This document shows positions 9,999-31,971 of a DNA stretch of 37,124 nucleotides, in pieces. A program made the translations under genes and the position numbers. The stretch covers positions 78,652 through 115,775 of the forward strand of contig JAJZJX010000002.1 of the NCBI GenBank assembly GCA_021850985.1, given 5' to 3'. How positions within the stretch are numbered: position 1 is the first letter of the stretch; each line of letters opens with the position of its first letter. A model generated the notes under the pieces. It was not told where the DNA came from. It saw only the letters and a program-made list of their open reading frames with translations, and did no database searches. The stretch comes from a bacterium (GTDB lineage Bacteria > SZUA-79 > Acidulodesulfobacterales > Acidulodesulfobacteraceae).

Positions 9999-10027
9999 AC
10001 GGGGACAGAATTCAATTCTGTCCCCGT
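9999..10027. repeat. GGGACAGAATT palindrome, copy 2 (complete)
   Basis: A perfect 29-base palindrome: 14-base arms (starting ACGGGGACAGAATT) around one C. It sits 20 bases upstream of the leuC start codon. Confidence 0.85.
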
Positions 10028-10046
10028 CGCAAACTTATAGTGCCGA

Positions 10047-10074
10047 AATTCAATTCTGTCCCCGTCGCAACTTG
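10047..10074. repeat. GGGACAGAATT palindrome, copy 3 (left arm decayed)
   Basis: Repeats, in the same direction, the right part of the preceding copy (ATTCAATTCTGTCCCCGTCG with CAACTT after it). The left arm is degraded to GCCGAAATT. It is a tandem or partial duplicate. Confidence 0.7.
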
Positions 10075-10254: not shown

Positions 10255-10281
10255 AATTTAATTCTGTCCCAGTCACAAATT
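10255..10281. repeat. GGGACAGAATT family half-site, copy 4
   Basis: Only the right arm is present (AATTTAATTCTGTCCC followed by AGTCACAAATT), three bases from the leuA stop codon. The GTCACAAATT flank matches the flanks at 7047-7065 and 23546-23574, which suggests the unit extends beyond the core palindrome. Confidence 0.65.
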
Positions 10282-20972: not shown

Positions 20973-23405
20973 TTACTTCCTTAAAGTTATCCCGAAACGG
21001 TTATTCAGTTCGTTAATCAAACCGTCCCTTAATTCATTGACCTCCTCCATAGTAAGCGTTCTGTCGTCGGCGATAGCGTCGTACCTTATAAGAAAAGATA
21101 TTTTGCCTTCATCTATCTGCTTGCCCGTATAAACATCTTCAAGCCTGACGTTTTTAATTAATGCGGAATATCCTTTAATTAATTTTTCGATAGAAGCATA
21201 CTCGATGCTTTTATCGCATACTATAGAAATATCCTGTTCAATTTCAGGGTATCTGTTCGGCGGTATGAAAGTTTTTTTATTCGAAATATATTCTTTAATA
21301 TTGTCCAAATCAAACTCGAACGCAAAAACCTTGCTTTCAATTTTAAATTCGTCTAATATTTCTTTCTTAATTTCGCCGAAAATTCCTACTTTAGCTTTGC
21401 CGGCGGTAATTTCTAACGATGCATTTTCATTATAAAAACTTGCCGCCTGTGTTTTATCGAACGAAATTTTTTTTATTCCGGATTCTTTAAGTAAAAATTC
21501 GACGATGCCTTTTCCTGCATAAAATTCCGGATCGCGGCTTGAACTCTTAATGCCTGTGCAGACGCATCCGCATAAAACGTTTTTTTCGTTAACCGGCATA
21601 TTATCCGTCTTTTCTCCTATATACGTTTTTCCTATTTCAAAAATCCTAATATTTTTATATTTTCTGGAATTTTGCTGGACAGACCTTAGTATATCGGGTA
21701 TAAGGCTAATCCTGAAAAAAGCGTAATCTGCGGAAATAGAATTTTTAAGCTCTAAAACGGAATTTCTGCCTATGGAAGAATTCTCAACCGATATATTTAT
21801 TTCTTTTCCGCCGGTAAGCGACGGCGAAATTATCTCGGTAAATCCGGCATATCTTAACAAATTTCTATACAGCCTGTATGTTTCGAAATTTGCGTTTTTT
21901 AACGGAGGAGCAAGCACGCCTAAAGGCATAGACGACTTTATATTATCGTAACCGTATATTCTTAAGATATCTTCGTAAATATTTACGGTTTCGCCGATAT
22001 CCGTCCTGAAATAGGGCGGGGAAACTGTAAGGACATTATTTTCTTCGGCAGAAGGTTCGACATGATAACCTAAGTTCGACAAAACGGTTCGGGCTTTTTT
22101 ATTTACCGCAGAATCGCCCGAAAATTCCGACAAGGCGTTCATATCTATTTCATAAATTTTAGAAGTTTTATCTTCCTTTATATCGTAAGCATAGCAGGTA
22201 ATTTCGATATCGCCCTCATACTTGCGAATAAGCTGAAGAAAACGTTTAATAGCATATATGCTTAAAGCCGGACTTATTCCTTTTTCAAAACGCGTCGAAG
22301 CATCCGTCCTTAAGGAAAGCGTTCTTGACGTTTTTCTTATTTTCGACATATTAAAATTGGCCGATTCTACAATAATATCGGTGGTATTATAGTCTATTTC
22401 GCTGTTTGCGGAACCCATTATTCCCGCTATAGCTATAATTTTATTTTTATCGGCTATAACTATATCTTCATCAGATAATTTTCTTTCTTTTCCGTCTAAA
22501 GTAACGGCGGTCTCGTCTTTTGCCGCAAACCGCACGTTGATTTCGTTTCCGTCAAGCTTTGAAGCGTCGAATGCGTGCAGAGGCTGGGAAGTTTCCATCA
22601 TTATAATATTAGTTAAATCGACGATATTATTAATCGGTCTTATGCCGCTTTTCATAAGTTTATTTTTTATATGCAAATCCGATTCTTTTATTTTTAAACC
22701 TGATATTTTTACCGCTATATAAGACGGCGCGATTTCGCGGTCGGATATATTTACATCTAATGCGTTCCGGTCGGAAGAATATTTTTCGCCGGCCGTTATC
22801 TTAACGCCTTCATATATTTCGGGTAAAACAATCTTTTTATCCAATATTGCGGCTAACTCGTAAGCAAACCCCATGATTCCAAAAAGATCCGGTCTGTTTG
22901 GCTCAAGATCGAATTCTAAAACGGTATCGTCAAGTTCAAAAATATCGTATGCAGACATACCGGTTTCTAAAAAAGGAAATTCCGCTATCGAATCTATATT
23001 TAACTGCAGTCCCAAATCTTTTTCCGAACAGAAGGCGGCTTCTGAAACAACGCCGAATATAGCCTTGTCTCTAATTTTTAATCCGTGGTCGAATACGGTT
23101 CCTTTAGTTGCTATTAAAGGCTTATCTCCGGCTTTTACGTCAAGCCCTTCTTTAGTAAACACTATCCTTTTAACTCCTATGGATTCTCCGGCGTAAACTT
23201 CGGCTATGCCGAACTTATCGTTGGAAGGATGCGGCGCAATGCTTTTTATTTCGCCGAGCACGATATTTTGAAACGACTTTTTTTGCGAATAATAAGGAAA
23301 TATTTTTTCTACTTCCATAGTTCTGCCGTTTAAAAGAGAGGCTACTTTTTCAGGCTCCGTTTTAAAATAAACAAATTCCTTAAGCCAGTTTAAGCTTACT
23401 TTCAA
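20973..23405 (-). CDS. pheT: Phenylalanyl-tRNA synthetase beta subunit
   Basis: 810 residues, full length. In order: the N-terminal region and tRNA-binding OB fold (about 40-150), the B3/B4 domain (SQPLHAFDASKLDG), the conserved RTDASTRFEKG, the B5 domain (about 400-475), the catalytic-like core, and a C-terminal anticodon-binding ferredoxin-like domain (about 715-810). It pairs with PheS to charge tRNA-Phe and edits mischarged Tyr. The start is TTG at 23405 with GGAGG eight bases upstream. It is unusual that pheS is 4 kb away, with three other genes and two repeats in between. Confidence 0.97.
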   Translation of the reverse strand: MKVSLNWLKEFVYFKTEPEKVASLLNGRTMEVEKIFPYYSQKKSFQNIVLGEIKSIAPHPSNDKFGIAEVYAGESIGVKRIVFTKEGLDVKAGDKPLIATKGTVFDHGLKIRDKAIFGVVSEAAFCSEKDLGLQLNIDSIAEFPFLETGMSAYDIFELDDTVLEFDLEPNRPDLFGIMGFAYELAAILDKKIVLPEIYEGVKITAGEKYSSDRNALDVNISDREIAPSYIAVKISGLKIKESDLHIKNKLMKSGIRPINNIVDLTNIIMMETSQPLHAFDASKLDGNEINVRFAAKDETAVTLDGKERKLSDEDIVIADKNKIIAIAGIMGSANSEIDYNTTDIIVESANFNMSKIRKTSRTLSLRTDASTRFEKGISPALSIYAIKRFLQLIRKYEGDIEITCYAYDIKEDKTSKIYEIDMNALSEFSGDSAVNKKARTVLSNLGYHVEPSAEENNVLTVSPPYFRTDIGETVNIYEDILRIYGYDNIKSSMPLGVLAPPLKNANFETYRLYRNLLRYAGFTEIISPSLTGGKEINISVENSSIGRNSVLELKNSISADYAFFRISLIPDILRSVQQNSRKYKNIRIFEIGKTYIGEKTDNMPVNEKNVLCGCVCTGIKSSSRDPEFYAGKGIVEFLLKESGIKKISFDKTQAASFYNENASLEITAGKAKVGIFGEIKKEILDEFKIESKVFAFEFDLDNIKEYISNKKTFIPPNRYPEIEQDISIVCDKSIEYASIEKLIKGYSALIKNVRLEDVYTGKQIDEGKISFLIRYDAIADDRTLTMEEVNELRDGLINELNNRFGITLRK

Positions 23406-23444: not shown

Positions 23445-23532
23445 GGAAAAGGTGTCAGATTTATTTTTTTGAAAATATTTTCTTTGTTTATTGACGATTT
23501 CGTATGCAAAAAATAAAATCTGACACCTTTTC
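23445..23532. repeat. Long palindrome, AAAAGGYGTCRGATT family, copy 2
   Basis: The arms GGAAAAGGTGTCAGATTT (from 23445) and its reverse complement AAATCTGACACCTTTTCC (ending 23532) flank an AT-rich spacer. Complementarity continues with one slipped T. The core is shared with the palindrome at 6939-7029. It lies upstream of pheT. Confidence 0.85.
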
Positions 23533-23545
23533 CTTTGAATTTGTG

Positions 23546-23574
23546 ACAGGGACAGAATTAAATTCTGTCCCTGT
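23546..23574. repeat. GGGACAGAATT palindrome, copy 5 (complete)
   Basis: A perfect 29-base palindrome: 14-base arms starting ACAGGGACAGAATT around one A, preceded by AATTTGTG. That flank is the reverse complement of the CACAAATT flank of the copies at 7047 and 10255. It lies just after the dprA stop codon and immediately beside another repeat family. Confidence 0.85.
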
Positions 23575-23581
23575 ATCTATA

Positions 23582-24577
23582 TCATGATATCATGTCAAAC
23601 AGTCCGGGCTGTGTCAGGTTTTCGTCTTCGACAAACTTTTCGGCGTGAAACTTATTGCGGACGTCATACATTTCTTCTAAAGACGAACCTAAATCCGGAG
23701 TAAAATCTTTGCGCAATTTTATTCCGAAAACACCGACCATTCCGTAAAGCGATTTCAATCCTTCATTGTCGTAAGAATTCATTAAATTTAAGTTATATTC
23801 CGGAATAAAAACCGGACGTTTCTGTTTAATAGAAAAACCGCAGGTTTTCATAGTTCCGCTTTTTAAAGGCGAAGATAACGCAAAAGTTCCGAGCGAAGAC
23901 CCGCTCTGCAGCCTGTCTCGCGCCACTAAATTTTTTGAAGATATATGTTCATGCGGCGGAAGTTCCGAAACCAGCGCCCCTCCGTTTAATATTATTTCGT
24001 TATATAAATCCCTGTTTTCAGGAGGATATACCGGGGAAAGCAGTCCCGATCCCAAAAACGCTATAGTATATCCGTTGTTTTTTAATGCAGCCTTATGCGC
24101 CGCCGAATCTATCCCCAAAGCAAGTCCGCTTATTATAGCATAACCGGAAGAACAAAGTTCCGCGGTTATGTCCTCTGCCAGTTTAACGGCATATTCGGGC
24201 GGTTTTCTCTGCCCTACGACCGTCGCAGCTAATTTTAAGTCCTCTTTTAACGCCCCTTTATAATAAAGAACTAAAGGCTTATTTTTAATTTTGCGTAAAT
24301 TTGCAGGATATAAAGAAGAATTAAAAGTTATTATTTTAACACCGTTTTTAGAAGCCTCGTCGATTTCTTTTATGGCATCGAAAAAAGCCGTCTTTATAAT
24401 TCTTTGGTTTATTAATATCTTAACGTAATCTATTTTTAAACCTGTTTTAATAAAATCGGATTTATCTGCGTTAAAAATTTCGCAGGGACTGCCGAATGCA
24501 TTAATTAAAAACATTATATGCCTGTTCTGCAGTCCTTTGATTTTTTTAAGCGCTAAAGTGCATATAATATCGTCCAT
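23582..24577 (-). CDS. dprA: DprA-like DNA-processing protein, divergent
   Basis: 331 residues from the ATG at 24577; a TTG one codon upstream is less likely. The N-terminal helical region (about 5-60) and the first half of the Rossmann fold fit DprA: VGQRKPPEYA (121-130), SGLALGIDSAAHKAAL (150-165) and GSGLLSPVYPPEN (177-188). The second half departs from competence DprA: the usual FPxRNRxIAGLS reads LVARDRLQSGSS (217-228), followed by LKSGTMKTC (238-246). The C-terminus (260-331) shows no winged helix. DprA loads RecA on incoming ssDNA. This variant is better regarded as DprA-like of uncertain role. Its start codon overlaps the comF-like stop by one base (TGATG). Confidence 0.85.
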   Translation of the reverse strand: MDDIICTLALKKIKGLQNRHIMFLINAFGSPCEIFNADKSDFIKTGLKIDYVKILINQRIIKTAFFDAIKEIDEASKNGVKIITFNSSLYPANLRKIKNKPLVLYYKGALKEDLKLAATVVGQRKPPEYAVKLAEDITAELCSSGYAIISGLALGIDSAAHKAALKNNGYTIAFLGSGLLSPVYPPENRDLYNEIILNGGALVSELPPHEHISSKNLVARDRLQSGSSLGTFALSSPLKSGTMKTCGFSIKQKRPVFIPEYNLNLMNSYDNEGLKSLYGMVGVFGIKLRKDFTPDLGSSLEEMYDVRNKFHAEKFVEDENLTQPGLFDMIS

Positions 24578-25182
24578 CAAATATCCCCGCCCGCAAAATT
24601 TACAATATCCTCTTCCGTAAGGGTTTTACCGAGAAATATTCCGGTTACCGCGCTTGCCCCCTCTTTTAATAAAGCGTTTTTTATAAGTTTAAAAGTCGTT
24701 CCCGTAGTTATAATATCGTCGAAAATTATTATTTTTTTAGATTTATAATCGTACCTATGCTCAAACAATATATTATCCGAATCCTTTTTTTTTAATTCTA
24801 TATTATTTTCGATATGCCCGGGTCTATGCCCTTTAGTGCATACGACAGCCTTTTCGTAAGTAGAAATAGTTCCCAGCGCCCAAAGATACAGGCATACCTG
24901 AGAATTAGGATAAACGTCTAAATATGAATTGCTTGGCGGAACCGGAAGCATCAAGTCGTAAAAATAAAAATAATTATATATAATATTGTTTAATATCTTT
25001 ATATAAAAAGATAGAGCCTTAGGATCTCCTTTTTTATATTTTAAAATTAAGTCTGAATATTTTACGATTGGCGTTAATTTGCCTTTATCGAGCGCATTTT
25101 TTTTATTTTTGGGAATATAATAATCTAAATAAAAATATTCTCCGTTGACGCCTGTTTTAATATTTATATTGCTTTGAAACAT
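24577..25182 (-). CDS. ComF-like phosphoribosyltransferase
   Basis: 201 residues. The PRPP-binding loop KIIIFDDIITTGTTF (150-164) with D155/D156 is the hallmark of type I phosphoribosyltransferases. The preceding LMLPVPPS (77-84) and KGHRPGHIENN (117-127) recall ComFC. The N-terminal zinc-ribbon cysteines of typical ComFC are absent. The substrate is unknown; ComFC proteins are needed for DNA uptake in transformable bacteria. It is coupled to the DprA-like gene and divergent from the helicase gene with only 32-74 bases between them, so a shared control region is likely. Confidence 0.8.
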   Translation of the reverse strand: MFQSNINIKTGVNGEYFYLDYYIPKNKKNALDKGKLTPIVKYSDLILKYKKGDPKALSFYIKILNNIIYNYFYFYDLMLPVPPSNSYLDVYPNSQVCLYLWALGTISTYEKAVVCTKGHRPGHIENNIELKKKDSDNILFEHRYDYKSKKIIIFDDIITTGTTFKLIKNALLKEGASAVTGIFLGKTLTEEDIVNFAGGDI

Positions 25183-25214
25183 TATCTTTATATTATTATT
25201 AATAATCCTTATAG

Positions 25215-27326
25215 TTGATTTTAAAAATTAAATCTTTAACAAATCGACAATTTAATATGATAAATCTTTATCTTAAAAATTTCAATTTTAATATATATAA
25301 TTCCATAGGGATACTGCTTTCTTCAGAAAATGAATGCAGGCGTTTTATTAAAAAAATTGAAGATTTAAATATAAACTGCGGATTTTTTACTTTCGAAGAC
25401 TTAAAAAAAAATTTTAATATTTACGGCGCGATTGAATCCCCGTTAAGTTTTCCTTTTAAAAATATCAAAAACGTTTTATCGTCAAAAGCGGTTTTTTTAA
25501 GCGGCATAACGGTAAATTCGCTTTCTGACGCAGTTTTATTAAACGCCGTCTGCAGCTTTGTATTAAACAACGGCATTATTTTAGGCATAGCAGCAGAAAC
25601 GGCTTTTAATACGCCTGAAGACATAACTAATTTATACTTCGCTCCGCATGTCGGAAAAAATTATTACGAAAATTTAATCATCGATATTTATAAATCGCGT
25701 TTAAAAATGCTTTTAAAAACGAGAATTTTAACTTCCCGCATAAACGGCGGATACACTGAATCTATAGACTTGTTTATCCGCAAAATGCAAACAATAGGTT
25801 TTAATCCTAAAATTGATAATACAAATTTATTTTTTTTAAATTCTGAAAAATTTGCCGTAAATATTAACATAATTCCGCCGGCGCATAATAAATTGCCGGA
25901 CGAAAAAACTGCGGAATTCGTTTCCCTAAATGATATTGCTTTAAATACAAATTTATACGACATGCACTTTTGCCAAAAAGAGCTGTTCAATAAAATTAAA
26001 ATATTTTTAAATACCGCTAAAAATTTAAAAGAAAGAACCGTTTTAAAAAAAACCGGCGGAATGGTGCAAAAACCGGCGTCGTATTCGGCAGATATAAGCA
26101 AAATTCAAAAATTATCGATAAAAGAAATAAATACGGCACAGCTTATAATAGCCGGAGCGGGAGCGGGCAAAACTAAGGTAATAGTCGATAAATTTTTATA
26201 TTTATTAAATTTCTTTTCCGCCGATTCAATACTTGTTCTGACTTTCACCAATAACGCCGTAAACGAAATAAAAAACAGGATAGTTAAAAGATTAAATATT
26301 AGCGGATACGGTAAATTTATAAACGATAATATTTTAAATATTTCAACCTATCACAGTTTTTTCTATTCTATAATAAAAGAATTTTATAGCGAACTCGGTT
26401 ACAAAACTGCTCCTTCGGTTTCCGGTAAAAAAACGGAAACGTACGGCGCGGATAATAAATATTCCGACGAATCATCTATATCTTACGACGAAATTATTTT
26501 AAATATAATCAAGCTGTTTAAAAACGACTCTATAGCAAATGAAATATCGTCAAGATTTAAATATATATTAGTAGATGAATATCAAGATTTAGATTTTTTA
26601 AGCGACTATTTAATAAAAAAAATAGACGCCGGCAAGGGCAAGGTTATGTATGCCGGCGACGACGACCAGTCGATATACGGATTTAACGGGGGAGATTTTT
26701 TTAATATTCTTACTTTCGACCTGTTTTTTCCTTCCGGCAAAGTATTTGTATTTCAAAATAATTACAGGTCAAACCGGACGGTCGTAGAATTTTGCAATTC
26801 AATATTGGATAATATAAAATTCAGGTATCCTAAAAAATTAATTGCAAAAAACAACGCAATACGGGATTCTGCGGTCGATATAATCGGTTTTAAAAATAAA
26901 AGCGAAGAAGAAAATTTTATAGCAAAAAAAGCGGCGGATTATTTTAAAACCGGAAAGAAAACCGCGGTTTTAGTAAGAACGAAAAGAGAGAAATCTAAAT
27001 TTAAGGATATTCCGAATTTAGCCGATTTTTGCCCGGTATCGACTATTCATGCCGGTAAAGGATTGGAGTTCGATATAGTATTTATTTCAGGTGCGCCAAA
27101 AGACAATATATCCCGCTTAAAAAACCCTCATTTAACGGCAGACAGCAGGCCGTCCGATTTTAAAATTCATCCTTTCTTAAATTTTTTTAAAACAAGCTAT
27201 GCGTTTAAAATAACCGATATATTCATCGACGACGAGATAAGGCTTTTTTACGTTGCAGCTTCTAGGGCCAAAGAAAAACTTTATATAACTTATTCAAGGG
27301 AAATTTCGGATTTCTTAAAACGTTAA
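25215..27326 (+). CDS. UvrD-like SF1A helicase with an unusual N-terminal domain
   Basis: 703 residues from TTG at 25215; ATG at 25257 (residue 15) is an alternative, and neither has a clear ribosome site. Helicase motifs occupy only about 300-703: Walker A AGAGAGKT (313-320), TFTNNAVNEI (343-352), Walker B VDEYQD (453-458), GDDDQSIYGFNGGD (481-494), NYRSNRTV (516-523), STIHAGKGLEFD (609-620) and YVAASRAKEKLYI (679-691). Motifs IV and V are about 90 residues apart, so the large 2B insertion is missing, and the Q-motif glutamine appears absent. Residues 1-290 are not a known helicase part; LSGITVNSLSDAVLLNAV (95-112) and SIDLFIRKMQTIGFN (183-197) faintly recall flavoproteins. Sampled stretches are very AT-rich (11 of 60 G+C at 25261-25320). 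Confidence 0.85.
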   Translation: MILKIKSLTNRQFNMINLYLKNFNFNIYNSIGILLSSENECRRFIKKIEDLNINCGFFTFEDLKKNFNIYGAIESPLSFPFKNIKNVLSSKAVFLSGITVNSLSDAVLLNAVCSFVLNNGIILGIAAETAFNTPEDITNLYFAPHVGKNYYENLIIDIYKSRLKMLLKTRILTSRINGGYTESIDLFIRKMQTIGFNPKIDNTNLFFLNSEKFAVNINIIPPAHNKLPDEKTAEFVSLNDIALNTNLYDMHFCQKELFNKIKIFLNTAKNLKERTVLKKTGGMVQKPASYSADISKIQKLSIKEINTAQLIIAGAGAGKTKVIVDKFLYLLNFFSADSILVLTFTNNAVNEIKNRIVKRLNISGYGKFINDNILNISTYHSFFYSIIKEFYSELGYKTAPSVSGKKTETYGADNKYSDESSISYDEIILNIIKLFKNDSIANEISSRFKYILVDEYQDLDFLSDYLIKKIDAGKGKVMYAGDDDQSIYGFNGGDFFNILTFDLFFPSGKVFVFQNNYRSNRTVVEFCNSILDNIKFRYPKKLIAKNNAIRDSAVDIIGFKNKSEEENFIAKKAADYFKTGKKTAVLVRTKREKSKFKDIPNLADFCPVSTIHAGKGLEFDIVFISGAPKDNISRLKNPHLTADSRPSDFKIHPFLNFFKTSYAFKITDIFIDDEIRLFYVAASRAKEKLYITYSREISDFLKR

Positions 27327-28357
27327 AACTGGTTTAAGATATCGAGACTGCCCTGATATAGAAGCCTCAAGTCGTTAATATTATATTTAAGCATAACTAT
27401 TCTGTCGAAACCCATTCCGAACGCAAAACCTTTATACTCTTCAGTATCGATGCCGGCGTATTTAAAAACGTTCGGATGTACCATTCCGCATGGTATTACT
27501 TCTATCCAGCCGGTATTTTTGCATACTCCGCAGCCTCTTCCGCCGCAGAATACGCATTCTATATCAAGATCTAAACCCGGTTCCACGAAAGGATAAAAAG
27601 CAGGCCGAAAACGTGTTTTTCTTGCACCGAGAAGATGTTTAACGGTCTCCTCCAATATTCCTTTTAAATCCGATAGCTTAACGTTTTTATCCACAAAAAG
27701 GCCTTCCATTTGATTAAACATAAAAAGATGCGTAGCGTCAACAGCTTCATATCTGTAACATCTGCCGGGCGCAATTATCCTCAGCGGCAGTTCTTTCTTC
27801 TCTAGAATTCTTGCCTGAACGCTCGACGTATGAGTTCTCGGCACCAAACCGTTCAGCAGATAGAAAGTGTCCCATACGTCTCTGGCGGGATGATCCGCTG
27901 GAATATTTAAAGCATCGAAATTATAATAAGCAGTTTCTATTTCGGGGCCTTCGACTATCGTAAAACCCATAGACGTAAAAAAATCTGCCGCTTCTTCCAG
28001 TACTGCCGTTATAGGATGTTTATGAAATCTTTCTATATGTTTTCCGGGTATGGTAAGGTCTATTTTATATTCTGCAGAAAATTTCTTGTTTTCGCCTGCA
28101 GAAAGTTCTGTTTTTTTTGCATTATAAACCGCTTCTATTTCGTTTTTTACTTCGTTAGATTTTTTTCCTATAATTTTTTTTTCTTCTATGGAATATGAAC
28201 CGATATTATGTAAAATTTCCGTAAGCCTGCCTTTCTTTCCCATAAAAGCCTTAAAGATGCCGTCCAGTTCGCTTGACTCCTTGGCGGAATCCAAAGACTT
28301 CTTTGCTTCTTCAGATATTTTATTAATAGTTTCTATAATTTCTATGTTTTTATCCAT
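27323..28357 (-). CDS. pheS: Phenylalanyl-tRNA synthetase alpha subunit
   Basis: 344 residues. An N-terminal coiled coil (about 1-85) is followed by the class II catalytic core with motif 2 PGRCYRYEAVDATH (about 196-209) and motif 3 FAFGMGFDRIVML (about 312-324). The cysteine cluster CVFCGGRGCGVCKNTGW is normal for many bacterial PheS proteins. Catalytic partner of PheT. It converges on the helicase gene with a four-base stop-codon overlap (TTAA), and pheT is not directly downstream as usual. Confidence 0.97.
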   Translation of the reverse strand: MDKNIEIIETINKISEEAKKSLDSAKESSELDGIFKAFMGKKGRLTEILHNIGSYSIEEKKIIGKKSNEVKNEIEAVYNAKKTELSAGENKKFSAEYKIDLTIPGKHIERFHKHPITAVLEEAADFFTSMGFTIVEGPEIETAYYNFDALNIPADHPARDVWDTFYLLNGLVPRTHTSSVQARILEKKELPLRIIAPGRCYRYEAVDATHLFMFNQMEGLFVDKNVKLSDLKGILEETVKHLLGARKTRFRPAFYPFVEPGLDLDIECVFCGGRGCGVCKNTGWIEVIPCGMVHPNVFKYAGIDTEEYKGFAFGMGFDRIVMLKYNINDLRLLYQGSLDILNQF

Positions 28358-28401: not shown

Positions 28402-31400
28402 TTATCCTACTACTTTATTTCTGCCTAATTCTTTTGCTCTATACAAATTATCGTCGGCAATTTTAAGCATAACGTTTAATATCTCATCTGGGTCGATATT
28501 CTTTCCTTCATTTTCCGCCCCATTATCGTAAAAAAACTGTTCTAAATCCGAAACTCCGACGGATATCGAAATAGTTAAATTTAAATTTTCTTTCGGCGTA
28601 TAAATTTTATTTTCGATATAAACCCTTAATTTTTCCATTAAATTCATAGCTTTTTCTTTGCCGGTATCAGGCAAGACTACAACGAATTCATCACCGCCGT
28701 ATCTTGTTATTATATCCTGCTTTCTGAGTAAAACGCTTTTTAAGTCGTTTGTAAATTCTACAAGCATAATATCGCCTATATTATGCCCGTAATTATCGTT
28801 TATACTTTTAAATTTATCGATATCCAATATAGCAAAAGAAAGAGCCGTCGAATTTCTTGCAGCCCTTACTATTTCTCTTTTTACGAACTCGTACATAAAT
28901 CTCCTGTTATGTATTCCCGTTAAAGAATCGGTAAGCGCAAGCTCCCTGTTCGTTTCTATTAATATCAGCTTTGCAAATACCGGCGATGCTATGTTTATTA
29001 TCTCTTTTATCAAGTCGATAATTTCATTAGTAAAAAAATACTTATCTTCCGAATCTATCGAAACGGTGCCTGCAACTTCGTCGCTGATTTTAAGCGGAAA
29101 ACATGTATAACTGCCGGCAGTTCCTTTAAATTCGCAACTATCGACGGTGTCGTCCGGATTATTATTTTTTCCGTTTTTTAGAAGTTTGCAGTTCGACAGA
29201 TAATCTTCGTAATCGATATTTGCCGTTTTCAGTATAATTTTATCGGCATTTTCGGAATTATCCGTTTCCTCCGGCGAGCTCTTTTTCCTGTCGTAAATCA
29301 AAGAAGTGACGGTTTTTTTATTAACTGTGTCGAATATGTTGATGTGAAGGGAATCTACCATGCCGCCGCCCTGTTTTTTTATAGAGTATAAACCTTCCGC
29401 AAACGTTTTTATAGCGTATTCAAGAGTAAAAACTATAGATAGTTTATACGACAGGCGGTTTAGCAGATCGAGTCTTTTTATATTATTTTTTAGAGCCGTT
29501 ATGTCTCCAAACACAAGTAGCCTTATAACGCTTTTATCTTTAGTTGTAAACAGATTAGACTTCATACTCAGTATAACGCCGTTTTTAAGATTAATTTCCA
29601 TGGTTTCCAGAGTAGCGGCGTATCTGTTGTTTATGTATGTTTCAAATACGGTTTTCGCAAAATTTTTATCTTCAAAGGCATCCTTCATTTTTTCATAAAA
29701 TTCATTTAAGCCTAACGGCGCAGAAAATTTGTTAATATTAAAAGCCCGGGCAAAATAGTCGTTGTAAAGATTAACCGTTTTATCGGTTAAATTGATAGAA
29801 ACTATCCCGAACTCCCCCATCTCATTTATTAAGTTTTCCCTGTTTTCTAAAAGTTCTAACGAAGAATCCAATTTTTCAAAAAGCGTATTAATTTCAAAAT
29901 ATTCCGCTAAAAAGTTTGCGCCGTTTTTAAAAAATTCTAAATCTTCGTCGTAAAACGATGCGCTTCTTTTAATTGCGCCGGTTATAGCCATATATCTTCT
30001 GTTTTCCGTTCCTTCGAAGGAATAAAGGATTATATCTTCTACGCCTTTATTTTTAAAATATCCCGTCGCAAAATCATCTTCCTGATAATTATATGCTTCA
30101 AGCCTGTTTTCAATTATCCGTTTTTTAACGAACTCGGTAGGAACCGGCGCAATCGTGCTTTTCCCTAAATTTAAAACCCACTTATTAGAAAATATTCCTT
30201 CTATAATTTCGCTTTTGACTGCGTCAAAAACGATAAATTCCGCAAAATCGGTCTGCATATTATCTTCCAAATCGTTTAAGAATTTTTGAAGATTGTTTAT
30301 TTCATATTTTTTCGTCATAGAAAACAGCGTCTGTTCGGCCATTTTAGATAAAAGCGACTGTCTTTTTAAATTTTTCAGGTAAGTTATCAGGTATGCGGCA
30401 TAATTCGCAAGATTTAAAATAATACCTGCTTTAATATCGTCAATCGATCCTTCTTTATTGGAATAAATTGCCATTATGCCGATAACGCGTCCCTGCATTA
30501 TTAAAGGAAATGCGCCTAATGATAAAAAATTATATTCTAAAAGTTTAGTTTTGTAATGTCTTGGTATAGTATTATCATTTTTTACGTCATTTATTACTGC
30601 ATAATTTTTTGATTTAATTGCTTTAGCGGTCAAATTTTGCGAATATTTTGAATTGACGGCATTTTCATCATATTGGAGAATCAAATTTTTAACGTAATTA
30701 AAATCGTTATTATAAGCGTTTATTATTTTTACTTCTTTTTTGTCTTCGTCTAAAACTCCGAACCAAGCATAACTGTATCCCATTTTTTCTACTATCAAAT
30801 TTATAAACTTTAAAGTAAGAGAATTAAAATCATCCTTATCGGAAACGGTTTTGGAAAAATCGTTTATACTGGACACTATCATGCTGTTTTCTTTCTGTTT
30901 TACTGCGATAGCGTTATTTAAAACGGTTATAGCTTTAGCTAAATCGTAAAATTCTATTTCTCTGTCTTTATACTTATCCGCAATATTGAATTCTTGAGGA
31001 TTGTCGGTATCTATATTTTTGACAGTTTCCAAAAGATCGTAAAAAGGACTTGAAAATCTTTTGTTTAAAAAAACAAATATCAATATGGTTGCTATGATAT
31101 ATAGAACTATAAAAAGAATTATTGACTTATAAAGATTTAAAAGATACCTAAACCATTTGTATTGCCTTATGCCTGTGCCGAATATACCTATAATTTTGCC
31201 GTCGTAATTTCTTATCGGTACGTTATATATATAAAAAGGCGTGCCTTTTACGCTTAGCGATGTATAAACGCTTGCGCCGTTTTTTAAAACAAGAGACTGT
31301 TTTTTTGTTGCTCTTTGTCCTATGCCTTCATACTTTTGTTTTTGGCTAAAAGAAATTGCCGATCTTATTGAACCGTAATAGATGCCGAAATTTACAGGCA

Positions 31401-31971
31401 AGTGTTTTTCAAATTTTATTTTTTTTAAATAAGAGCTGGTGATATGTTTGTTAAAAATAATTATATAACCGCTTTTTTTATTAAGCAGACGATAAATCAC
31501 TCTCAGCGCTATAAGACGGTTTAATCTTTCTCTTCCGTAGCCTGTAAAAATATACCTGTTTTTTGCAAATATTATTCTTTTTAATCTTTCATAATATGGC
31601 TTTGATATTTTTATTTTTTCTGAATATTTATTATTTTTAAATTCCTTAATATAATCTATTTTTCCATTTTTTATTTTTATCAAGTCTATACTTGATATTT
31701 TTCTAGATTTAGCTGCATTTTGGATAAATCTGTTTTTAAAATTGTGAGCTATTATATAATTGGCTTTTTCGATCATATAGTTGTTTTCATCTAAAAAAGC
31801 CATGGTGCATGCCATTAAATCCGATTTTAACTCTTGCCTTAACGATTTGCGGCTGTATATGGCAATATAATGGAGAGCTATAAGTATTCCTGCCGAAAAA
31901 ATAATAATATTCGACAGAATAAATAGGAAATAAATTTTAAATTTTATAGAATTAACGTTTATTTTCGGCAT
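28402..31971 (-). CDS. Membrane sensor diguanylate cyclase with GAF and PAS-like domains
   Basis: 1189 residues. Order: membrane helix 12-34, a periplasmic Cache-like sensor (about 40-280), membrane helix 282-303, a HAMP-like linker, a GAF domain (about 380-530), a second GAF-like region (555-700), a PAS-like region (705-830), a third GAF (835-1005) and GGDEF (1013-1187). The active loop is GGDEF at 1092-1096 and the inhibitory site RxxD (R1083-D1086) is exactly five residues before it, so an active, product-inhibited c-di-GMP synthase is expected. No EAL domain is present. The signal sensed is unknown. The gene stands alone between atpE and pheS; its start codon lies in the arm of a 14-bp inverted repeat, and its ribosome site is weak. 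Confidence 0.9.
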   Translation of the reverse strand: MPKINVNSIKFKIYFLFILSNIIIFSAGILIALHYIAIYSRKSLRQELKSDLMACTMAFLDENNYMIEKANYIIAHNFKNRFIQNAAKSRKISSIDLIKIKNGKIDYIKEFKNNKYSEKIKISKPYYERLKRIIFAKNRYIFTGYGRERLNRLIALRVIYRLLNKKSGYIIIFNKHITSSYLKKIKFEKHLPVNFGIYYGSIRSAISFSQKQKYEGIGQRATKKQSLVLKNGASVYTSLSVKGTPFYIYNVPIRNYDGKIIGIFGTGIRQYKWFRYLLNLYKSIILFIVLYIIATILIFVFLNKRFSSPFYDLLETVKNIDTDNPQEFNIADKYKDREIEFYDLAKAITVLNNAIAVKQKENSMIVSSINDFSKTVSDKDDFNSLTLKFINLIVEKMGYSYAWFGVLDEDKKEVKIINAYNNDFNYVKNLILQYDENAVNSKYSQNLTAKAIKSKNYAVINDVKNDNTIPRHYKTKLLEYNFLSLGAFPLIMQGRVIGIMAIYSNKEGSIDDIKAGIILNLANYAAYLITYLKNLKRQSLLSKMAEQTLFSMTKKYEINNLQKFLNDLEDNMQTDFAEFIVFDAVKSEIIEGIFSNKWVLNLGKSTIAPVPTEFVKKRIIENRLEAYNYQEDDFATGYFKNKGVEDIILYSFEGTENRRYMAITGAIKRSASFYDEDLEFFKNGANFLAEYFEINTLFEKLDSSLELLENRENLINEMGEFGIVSINLTDKTVNLYNDYFARAFNINKFSAPLGLNEFYEKMKDAFEDKNFAKTVFETYINNRYAATLETMEINLKNGVILSMKSNLFTTKDKSVIRLLVFGDITALKNNIKRLDLLNRLSYKLSIVFTLEYAIKTFAEGLYSIKKQGGGMVDSLHINIFDTVNKKTVTSLIYDRKKSSPEETDNSENADKIILKTANIDYEDYLSNCKLLKNGKNNNPDDTVDSCEFKGTAGSYTCFPLKISDEVAGTVSIDSEDKYFFTNEIIDLIKEIINIASPVFAKLILIETNRELALTDSLTGIHNRRFMYEFVKREIVRAARNSTALSFAILDIDKFKSINDNYGHNIGDIMLVEFTNDLKSVLLRKQDIITRYGGDEFVVVLPDTGKEKAMNLMEKLRVYIENKIYTPKENLNLTISISVGVSDLEQFFYDNGAENEGKNIDPDEILNVMLKIADDNLYRAKELGRNKVVG

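Follow-up and report, generated by a model that had tools for sequence, protein, structure and literature searches.

Three genes lying between pheT and pheS in the window (the whole analysed stretch of 37,124 nucleotides), which encode a DprA, a phosphoribosyltransferase (PRTase) and a helicase, resemble a settled relative of known toxin-antitoxin pairs more closely than a machine for DNA uptake. The explanation that we favour, and hold tentatively, is that they form a ShosTA/PsyrTA-like PRTase–DprA module that has become domesticated in the core genome of one phylum, where it holds the only DprA and would act together with a diverged UvrD-type helicase at replication forks.

The genes pheS and pheT are usually adjacent. 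That three open reading frames separate them here, in the order and on the strands given in a preliminary description of this DNA, was borne out, and both flanking genes were confirmed by Pfam (Table 1). The stop codon of the PRTase gene and the start codon of dprA indeed overlap by a single base (minus-strand TGATG, with TGA at 24579-24577 and ATG at 24577-24575). The start codons conserved in relatives place dprA at 23582-24577 and the start of the helicase gene (25257-27326, 689 aa) at ATG 25257, so that the distance between the divergent PRTase and helicase genes, earlier put at no more than 74 bases, is exactly 74. The helicase gene and pheS are convergent and overlap by four bases (27323-27326).

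Table 1. Features of the pheT-pheS locus, in positions of the window
Feature	Position	Strand	Basis
pheT, flank	20973..23405	-	Pfam
dprA, ShosA-side DprA, 331 aa	23582..24577	-	PF02481, TIGR00732, start kept in relatives, tree
Codons for C-terminal QPGLF, clamp-binding-like pentapeptide Q-x-x-L-F	23597..23611	-	Translation
PRTase, ComF superfamily, 201 aa	24577..25182	-	ShosT, comF and PF00156 matches
PRPP-binding loop DDIITTGTT	24694..24720	-	D155, T159, G161 and T163 invariant in 21 sequences
PRTase/helicase divergent intergenic region, 74 bases	25183..25256		12 to 140 bases in 20 relatives
Helicase N-terminal part, ~280 aa	25257..26099	+	Relatives: none found
Helicase core, SF1A UvrD-type	26100..27326	+	PF00580, PF13361, motif positions
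pheS, flank	27323..28357	-	Pfam

The dprA/PRTase pair was found in 29 of the 30 host-phylum genomes (cut by a contig end in G008), and in the remaining one (G013, 65% complete) no match to dprA, PRTase or helicase was obtained. The order pheT–dprA–PRTase–helicase–pheS is kept in 25 of the 29 genomes holding the pair, namely in the window, in 19 of the 20 loci of a first set and in 5 of the 8 loci of a second; in one genome counted among the 25 (G001), the contig breaks off within pheT. In G011, G010 and G008 contig ends cut inside or beside the block, and G018 (99% complete) has pheS-PRTase-dprA-pheT, lacking the helicase. Such a recurrence of the same five-gene order is not a matter of chance, and the proposal that the three genes form one unit is supported by this fixed order throughout the host phylum. 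The genes are under purifying selection: in comparisons with three genomes dN/dS was 0.21-0.25 for the helicase, 0.20-0.25 for the PRTase and 0.11-0.13 for dprA, with 0.04-0.06 for pheS. The block is located in the core genome, fixed between pheS and pheT, and no mobile or defence-island setting was seen.

The DprA of the window consists of an N-terminal part, a DprA/Rossmann domain (PF02481, 178 bits) and a short tail; a winged-helix Pfam match was not found, and the score with TIGR00732 (165.5 bits) is below the cut-off of 191. A canonical dprA elsewhere in the genome had been considered in the preliminary description; exactly one DprA above the Pfam cut-off is present per genome in 29 of the 30 host-phylum genomes, and this sole DprA lies outside the canonical clade. 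In a tree of 46 sequences, a branch with 100/97 support separates 20 canonical and four PRTase-paired phage DprAs from nine host-phylum DprAs, nine PRTase-paired mobile ones (P2 ShosA included) and four further mobile DprAs. The mobile PRTase-paired DprAs are thus divided, with 9 of 13 on the ShosA side and 4 of 13 on the canonical side, and resolution of the inner branches is weak on the ShosA side. The tree, from which L184-L187 and 3 of 12 host-phylum rows were left out and for which a stricter column filter was used, supersedes a quick 53-row tree with very long branches. The difference between the TIGR00732 and ShosA scores was above zero in all six canonical controls scored, below zero in all four ShosA-side mobile DprAs scored, and -42 for the window DprA. 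The PADLOC ShosA model was rejected as proof of ShosA membership: P2 ShosA (L234) reaches 765 bits, and since canonical DprAs also match, at 190-241 bits, this general model fails to separate canonical from ShosA-side DprAs.

The PRTase of the window is matched by the ShosT (50.9 bits) and comF (36 bits) models and by PF00156 (22.7 bits, below its cut-off). The ShosT match was considered weak as proof of identity, as 13 of 14 control genomes also contain a match to the model and, in another phylum, so do 10 of 10 genomes (20-36 bits). The comF model matches 20 of 20 orthologous host-phylum loci. The four-cysteine zinc finger of the ComFC type is absent from all 20 orthologous PRTases, compared to its presence in 16 of 16 ComF controls (the proteins used from a comF search in 17 genomes, weak matches in G052 being left out). 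No HAD match was detected in the 201 residues of the window PRTase, only PRTase-type matches. Compared as profiles, the PRTase aligned to ComF with an E-value of 5e-15 over 149 columns and to seven mobile PRTases with 4e-11 over 74 columns, and it thus appears closer to ComF than to this small mobile sample. The alternative suggestion of the preliminary description, a DNA-conflict system using a DprA/PRTase pair, stands in part: it agrees with the DprA tree, and less so with the ComF-like PRTase profile and with a core-genome site holding the only dprA. Because of that site and that single copy, the pair looks domesticated.

The C-terminal end of the DprA resembles a clamp-binding motif, which suggests that the protein may dock on the sliding clamp. 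A Q-x-x-L-F tail is present in 28 of 28 complete host-phylum orthologues, with P at position two in 25 and L in three. In excerpts of the published account the consensus of bacterial clamp-binding C-terminal pentapeptides is QL(S/D)LF-like (PMC9690074), a strict consensus that the tail matches loosely, given that position two is mostly P. The exact Q..LF occurs in 3 of 704 other C-termini.

Two samples of DprAs were used for comparison. For the viral sample, the best 80 of 162 relatives were grouped into 55 clusters at 70% identity, of which one (with an open 3' end) was dropped and 54 were counted; a viral DprA counted as PRTase-adjacent if any of five PRTase HMMs matched (E up to 1e-3) at some point in its locus, which reached up to ~3 kb on each side. 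A separate viral scan yielded four sequences identical or nearly identical to P2 ShosA, and further viral scans were empty. The mobile sample (n=22) was chosen by hand to cover varied cases among the 60 rows listed from 37 phage records and 238 plasmid records; 13 of the 22, two of them near-identical, were taken as PRTase-adjacent by annotation or by a PRPP-loop pattern in the neighbour, and L234 was included among these because its DprA is the ShosA of PADLOC.

Relative to background C-termini, the tail motif is enriched among DprAs that lie next to a PRTase. The pentapeptide pattern Q..[LMI][FL], fixed after the first tails and before the viral sample, was found in 10 of 46 PRTase-adjacent viral lineages (from the best 80 of 162 relatives) and in 6 of 704 background C-termini (30 matches in 728 C-termini minus 24 DprA rows; Fisher 1.7e-9). 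One of these ten lineages (L362) is P2 ShosA, which was already in the mobile sample, so that the viral sample is largely, not wholly, independent. Counting hexapeptides as well, a pattern added after the viral pentapeptide result and hence partly post hoc, the viral number (best 80 of 162 relatives) rises to 20 of 46, with 14 of 705 in the background and 1 of 20 among canonical DprAs. Within the viral sample (best 80 of 162 relatives) the contrast of 10 of 46 PRTase-adjacent versus 0 of 8 other DprAs is not significant (p 0.17). In the mobile sample the pentapeptide occurs in 5 of 13 PRTase-adjacent DprAs (7 of 13 with hexapeptides), P2 ShosA (L234) ending in the clamp-like QLSLL, and a related end occurs in two (L264, L267) of the nine other DprAs. 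The motif was found in 0 of 8 members of a subgroup with a GAIRV tail, and L185, the second DprA-like copy of a control genome, carries it; it is absent from L237, a DprA beside a RecQ-family helicase, but the C-terminus of the latter fell outside the stretch. The motif is a short one.

Published systems offer several parallels. Excerpts of the respective accounts state that in RqlHI a DprA-like partner restrains the toxicity of the PRTase (PMC4670107), that a pair of DprA and PRTase gives phage defence (PMC9122126) and, as relayed by a citing paper, that ShosT acts on the purine pool and ShosA binds DNA (PMC12593503). ShosTA, a PRTase-HAD toxin with a DprA-like antitoxin found in P2 and Pf phages, shares with the host-phylum locus an adjacent PRTase and a ShosA-side DprA, and the tail of P2 ShosA is clamp-like too; it differs in its mobile setting, in the HAD part (an annotated ShosT of a Pf phage has 478 aa with HAD) and in lacking the helicase alongside. 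RqlHI/PsyrTA, a RecQ-like helicase with a PRTase domain plus a DprA-like partner, combines the same three activities according to the excerpt (PMC4670107), whereas the window helicase is of the SF1 UvrD-type and is encoded by a separate, divergent gene. The L237 arrangement is possibly of the RqlHI/PsyrTA kind.

We infer clamp docking, the activity of the PRTase and its restraint, the role of the helicase and a function in defence, which would be connected as follows. The ShosA-side DprA would bind exposed DNA and dock on the replication sliding clamp via its Q-x-x-L-F tail; in this docked state it would restrain the coupled PRTase and help recombination. At stalled forks, or upon takeover of replication by a phage, the restraint would be lost and the released PRTase would act on nucleotide or PRPP pools, and the helicase would open or clear DNA at the fork. 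In favour of the domesticated module we counted the fixed gene order, the single DprA per genome, the lack of ComEC (see below), the DprA tree, the tail motif, the TIGR00732-minus-ShosA scores and the published pairs (RqlHI, DprA+PRTase defence, ShosTA). Counted against it were the lack of a HAD match, the ComF-like PRTase profile, the core-genome site, the non-discriminating PADLOC ShosA model, the weak inner branches and the 4 of 13 pairs on the canonical side, as well as the shortness of the motif, its non-significant viral contrast, the GAIRV-tail subgroup, L185 and the fact that the helicase is not a regular partner elsewhere.

Nearly as likely is a plain housekeeping module for recombination or fork repair that involves no toxin, in which DprA would load RecA, the PRTase would be a partner that senses nucleotides or PRPP (a role discussed for ComFC), and the helicase would process DNA ends or gaps. 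The core position, the single copy and the near-universal presence in the host phylum agree with such a role, as do the dN/dS of dprA, the PRTase profile and the contact between ComFC and DprA described in an excerpt of PMC9005727; the position of the DprA on the ShosA side of the tree and a PRTase devoid of the ComFC zinc finger argue against it. The clamp-like tail fits this explanation and the domesticated module equally well.

The helicase possesses the core motifs Walker A, DEYQD, GDDDQ, NYRS, TIH..KG and SRA, which are conserved. PF00580 matches in two stretches (3-104 and 179-267), positions 104-179 being skipped across ~14 codons of the helicase, and PF13361 was also matched. The NYRS and TIH motifs are ~95 residues apart, and the size of 2B in PcrA is the yardstick for calling this domain reduced. 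Read in this way, the core is of the SF1A UvrD-type but lacks the larger part of its 1B and 2B insertions. Its motifs are shared with UvrD/PcrA/Rep and with GajB of Gabija, and the PADLOC models for GajB and RTasHel match the window helicase core; unlike those proteins it carries the 280-residue N-terminal part, for which relatives were not found, and it misses most of 1B/2B. In the window protein this part has no Pfam match, and against plasmids and phages no match was obtained at E 0.1. A DnaA/Hda-like domain found no support with hhalign (probability 0.8%), one DnaA row, read as 18 residues, being left out. Weak Pfam matches, e.g. to TENA/THI-4, occur in this part of a few relatives (4 of 21, best E 0.066). 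An AlphaFold2 model based on the single helicase sequence was unusable (mean pLDDT 30.5). At C1 there is another gene, UvrD/PcrA-like, in which PF00580 is matched in full.

The association of the helicase with the pair is specific to the host phylum. In 27 of 29 genomes an orthologue lies beside the pair; elsewhere, where the preliminary description had suggested counting neighbours across distant lineages, such a proximity was not recovered. A contig scan with the helicase alignment yielded at least 80 other UvrD-like loci, with no orthologue among the matches listed, and these loci served as controls: a DprA or ComF was found near the helicase in 0 of 80 among the matches listed, many of which extend for less than 7 kb on one side. 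At E up to 1 the 80 listed loci gave three weak matches (0.0086, 0.052 and 0.18). The positive controls of the neighbour models used in this count were the loci that had supplied the model proteins, except for the comF model on host-phylum loci, and one third of the host-phylum rows went into the dprA model. Likewise, none of the 54 viral DprA lineages (drawn from the best 80 of 162 relatives) had such a helicase within up to ~3 kb; the helicase models used for this count lacked a positive control of their own. A single case was seen on a plasmid of Tunicatimonas, where a PRTase, a DprA and a UvrD/PD-(D/E)XK protein are encoded in a row.

These observations bear on the view that the locus holds two units independent of each other, with a fast-evolving helicase unrelated to the DprA/PRTase pair sharing the stable pheS/pheT site with it. 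The divergent transcription, the pair without helicase in G018 and the lack of such helicases near DprA or ComF among the 80 loci listed would fit; we nevertheless consider this unlikely, as the linkage persists over a divergence down to about 33-35% helicase identity, the helicase motifs are conserved and the plasmid pair is also adjoined by a UvrD-type protein.

Finally, the competence machine of the preliminary description, in which a UvrD-type motor would take the place of ComFA beside ComFC and DprA, is very improbable and was rejected: a ComF-superfamily PRTase, a DprA and a helicase are present, but ComEC was found in 0 of 30 host-phylum genomes (19 of high quality; the same search was positive in 10 of 14 control genomes), the zinc finger is missing and the DprA is non-canonical, all unlike the ComFC/DprA of natural transformation. 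Among 15 control genomes, comF and dprA lie on different contigs in 11, and in the other 4 they share a contig but at a great distance.

That the only DprA of a phylum in which ComEC was not found is part of such a pair bears on the purpose of DprA in bacteria without known competence. It is possible, if rather doubtful, that PRTase-paired DprAs as a class (ShosA and its relatives) are tethered to the sliding clamp by their C-terminal motif and act as replisome sensors, and that in the host phylum one of these pairs, joined by a UvrD-like helicase of a new kind, has come to serve as the sole DprA and as a permanent guardian of the fork. The clamp-like tail, seen on many PRTase-paired DprAs and rare in the background and in the sampled canonical DprAs, offers a directly testable answer as to how antitoxins of the DprA type perceive an infection or a disturbance of replication and keep PRTase toxins in check.

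The five genes of the block stand in the window in the order pheT-dprA-phosphoribosyltransferase (PRTase)-helicase-pheS, so that three genes part pheS from pheT, as the preliminary description had it. It also read correctly the coupling of the PRTase and dprA genes, in which the stop and the start have one base in common, and the divergent helicase gene, which follows after a gap of 74 bases. At their 3' ends the helicase and pheS genes share 4 bases. The coordinates rest on starts that are conserved in relatives.

Genes of the block and its flanks (window coordinates)
Gene	Position	Strand	Remark
pheT	20973-23405	-	flank of block
dprA	23582-24577	-	start conserved in relatives
PRTase gene	24577-25182	-	
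UvrD-type helicase gene	25257-27326	+	start conserved in relatives
pheS	27323-28357	-	flank of block

The pheT-dprA interval (23445-23574) contains two inverted repeats, one with 27-base arms around GGTGTCAGATTT and one with 14-base arms of ACAGGGACAGAATT. GGGACAGAATT is additionally found at 10002-10062 and 10260-10270; the window holds seven matches to it at no more than one mismatch (six exact; 0.68 expected), and these repeats look like a REP-like family. Directly upstream of pheS a 1189-aa Cache-GAF-GGDEF protein is encoded (28402-31971), which was matched beside pheS in 5 of 20 relatives' loci. In genome G014 (L042:11794-13962) the matched pieces, residues 831-1189 and 1-377, skip the middle, and the gene therefore looks shortened or broken.

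The phylum was sampled by 30 genomes from one family and six genera, the window genome being 81% complete. A single dprA scored above the Pfam cut-off in 29 of them, and the PRTase was likewise found in 29 (the copy in G008 is partial, ending at a contig edge). All five genes occur in order in 25 of 29 genomes; contig ends interrupt three loci (G011, G010 and G008), and in G018 (99% complete) the pair lies between pheS and pheT in the absence of the helicase. The helicase diverges fast (dN/dS 0.21-0.25, identity among relatives falling to about 33-35%) and nonetheless keeps its motifs; dprA changes more slowly (dN/dS 0.11-0.13).

Canonical DprA seems to be missing from the phylum, with a DprA of the ShosA side in its place, as judged from tree placement and model score differences. 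In a maximum likelihood tree of 46 DprAs, a branch with 100/97 support separates 20 canonical and four PRTase-paired phage DprAs from the nine sampled phylum DprAs, nine PRTase-paired mobile DprAs (among them the ShosA of phages P2 and Pf) and four further mobile DprAs, one adjoining a RecQ-family helicase gene and one near recQ. A quick tree with more rows gave the same split with weaker support. The dprA equivalog model outscored the ShosA model in 6/6 canonical controls and scored below it in 4/4 ShosA-side controls and the window DprA; the ShosA score by itself does not discriminate the two kinds.

A short variable tail ending in Q-x-x-L-F (position two P in 25 and L in three, position three free) is present in all 28 complete phylum DprAs. 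Canonical DprAs typically end in a winged helix, and none of the 20 sampled carries the pentapeptide. Of 704 other C-termini, three contain Q..LF in their final 14 residues. The P2 ShosA ends in QLSLL and other PRTase-paired mobile DprAs in QLNMF, QMSML (twice, near-identical) and QMTLF; a second DprA-like copy in a control genome (L185) ends in QEDLF. The bacterial clamp-binding pentapeptide is given as C-terminal, variable QL(S/D)LF (PMC9690074), a consensus that the phylum tails match loosely. In the open-access literature searched we found no report of such a clamp-like tail on DprA or ShosA.

The best 80 of 162 viral relatives (L330-L409) yielded 54 DprA lineages with complete ends. A PRTase accompanies the DprA in 46 of these, so that viral DprA is in this sample mostly a PRTase partner, for a query that itself consisted of PRTase-paired DprAs. 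The pentapeptide was found in 10 of these 46 lineages versus 6/704 in the background (p 1.7e-9) and 0/8 in the other viral DprAs (p 0.17). With a hexapeptide pattern that was added after inspection, and is thus partly post hoc, the counts in the same best 80 of 162 rose to 20/46, versus 14/705 in the background and 8/210 for other ORFs of the same viral loci, while canonical DprAs gave 1/20 and the mobile sample 7/13. Eight lineages of these best 80 of 162 have a GAIRV-type tail with neither pattern, and none of the 54 has a UvrD- or RecQ-like helicase in its locus.

The helicase core contains all SF1A motifs, but by the gaps in its profile matches it lacks the greater part of 1B and 2B. The first 280 residues of the window protein matched no Pfam family and nothing in plasmids or phages, and a DnaA-like nature was not supported by hhalign. 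Outside the phylum, 16 genomes matched the core only. The proposed association of helicase and pair holds within the phylum, where they are neighbours in 27 of 29 genomes (lost in G018, the G008 locus ending at a contig edge), but not beyond it: among the matches listed, 80 UvrD-like loci lie in other bacteria, and 0 of these had DprA or ComF at a distance of up to 7 kb (E 1e-5). Among the searches made, this helicase type was found in this phylum only. A Tunicatimonas pelagia plasmid (L239, 1574-6534) encodes in a row a PRTase, a DprA with the tail QMTLF and a UvrD/PD-(D/E)XK protein, which by gene content is an independent three-gene case. In RqlH a RecQ-like helicase and a PRTase are joined in one protein (PMC4670107), whereas here the UvrD-type helicase is a separate gene. 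Because of this trio and the fusion, the combination of helicase, PRTase and DprA is known in kind.

The known PRTase/DprA relatives and the tail motif lead us to favour, tentatively, a domesticated PRTase-DprA module at the replication fork. A housekeeping repair module free of toxicity is nearly as likely; in its favour, the PRTase profile aligns better with ComF than with the few mobile PRTases compared, so that the PRTase alone does not decide between ComF and the mobile kind. The suggested conflict system is supported as far as the side of the DprA is concerned; we do not claim membership of ShosTA proper, since that toxin has a HAD part and is mobile, whereas the window PRTase gave no HAD match and the block occupies a fixed site between pheS and pheT. 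The alternative proposal of a competence machine can largely be set aside, with ComEC (PF03772) in 0/30 phylum genomes (19 of high quality; the same search was positive in 10/14 known control genomes), a PRTase that scores far below the comF cut-off and keeps its PRPP loop, and the zinc-finger cysteines of the four-Cys type of ComFC in 0/20 orthologues versus 16/16 ComF controls. Of the 15 control genomes compared, 4 carry comF and dprA at distant sites of a single contig, and in the other 11 the two genes are on separate contigs.

Among known relatives, the PRTase of RqlHI is the active partner and the DprA-like protein its restraint (PMC4670107), a DprA-PRTase pair has a defence role (PMC9122126), and ShosT is cited second-hand as acting on purine pools (PMC12593503). 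In the domesticated module that we favour, the PRTase would likewise be the active partner and DprA its restraint, the pair may be placed at the replication fork, and the helicase would be a third part specific to the phylum.
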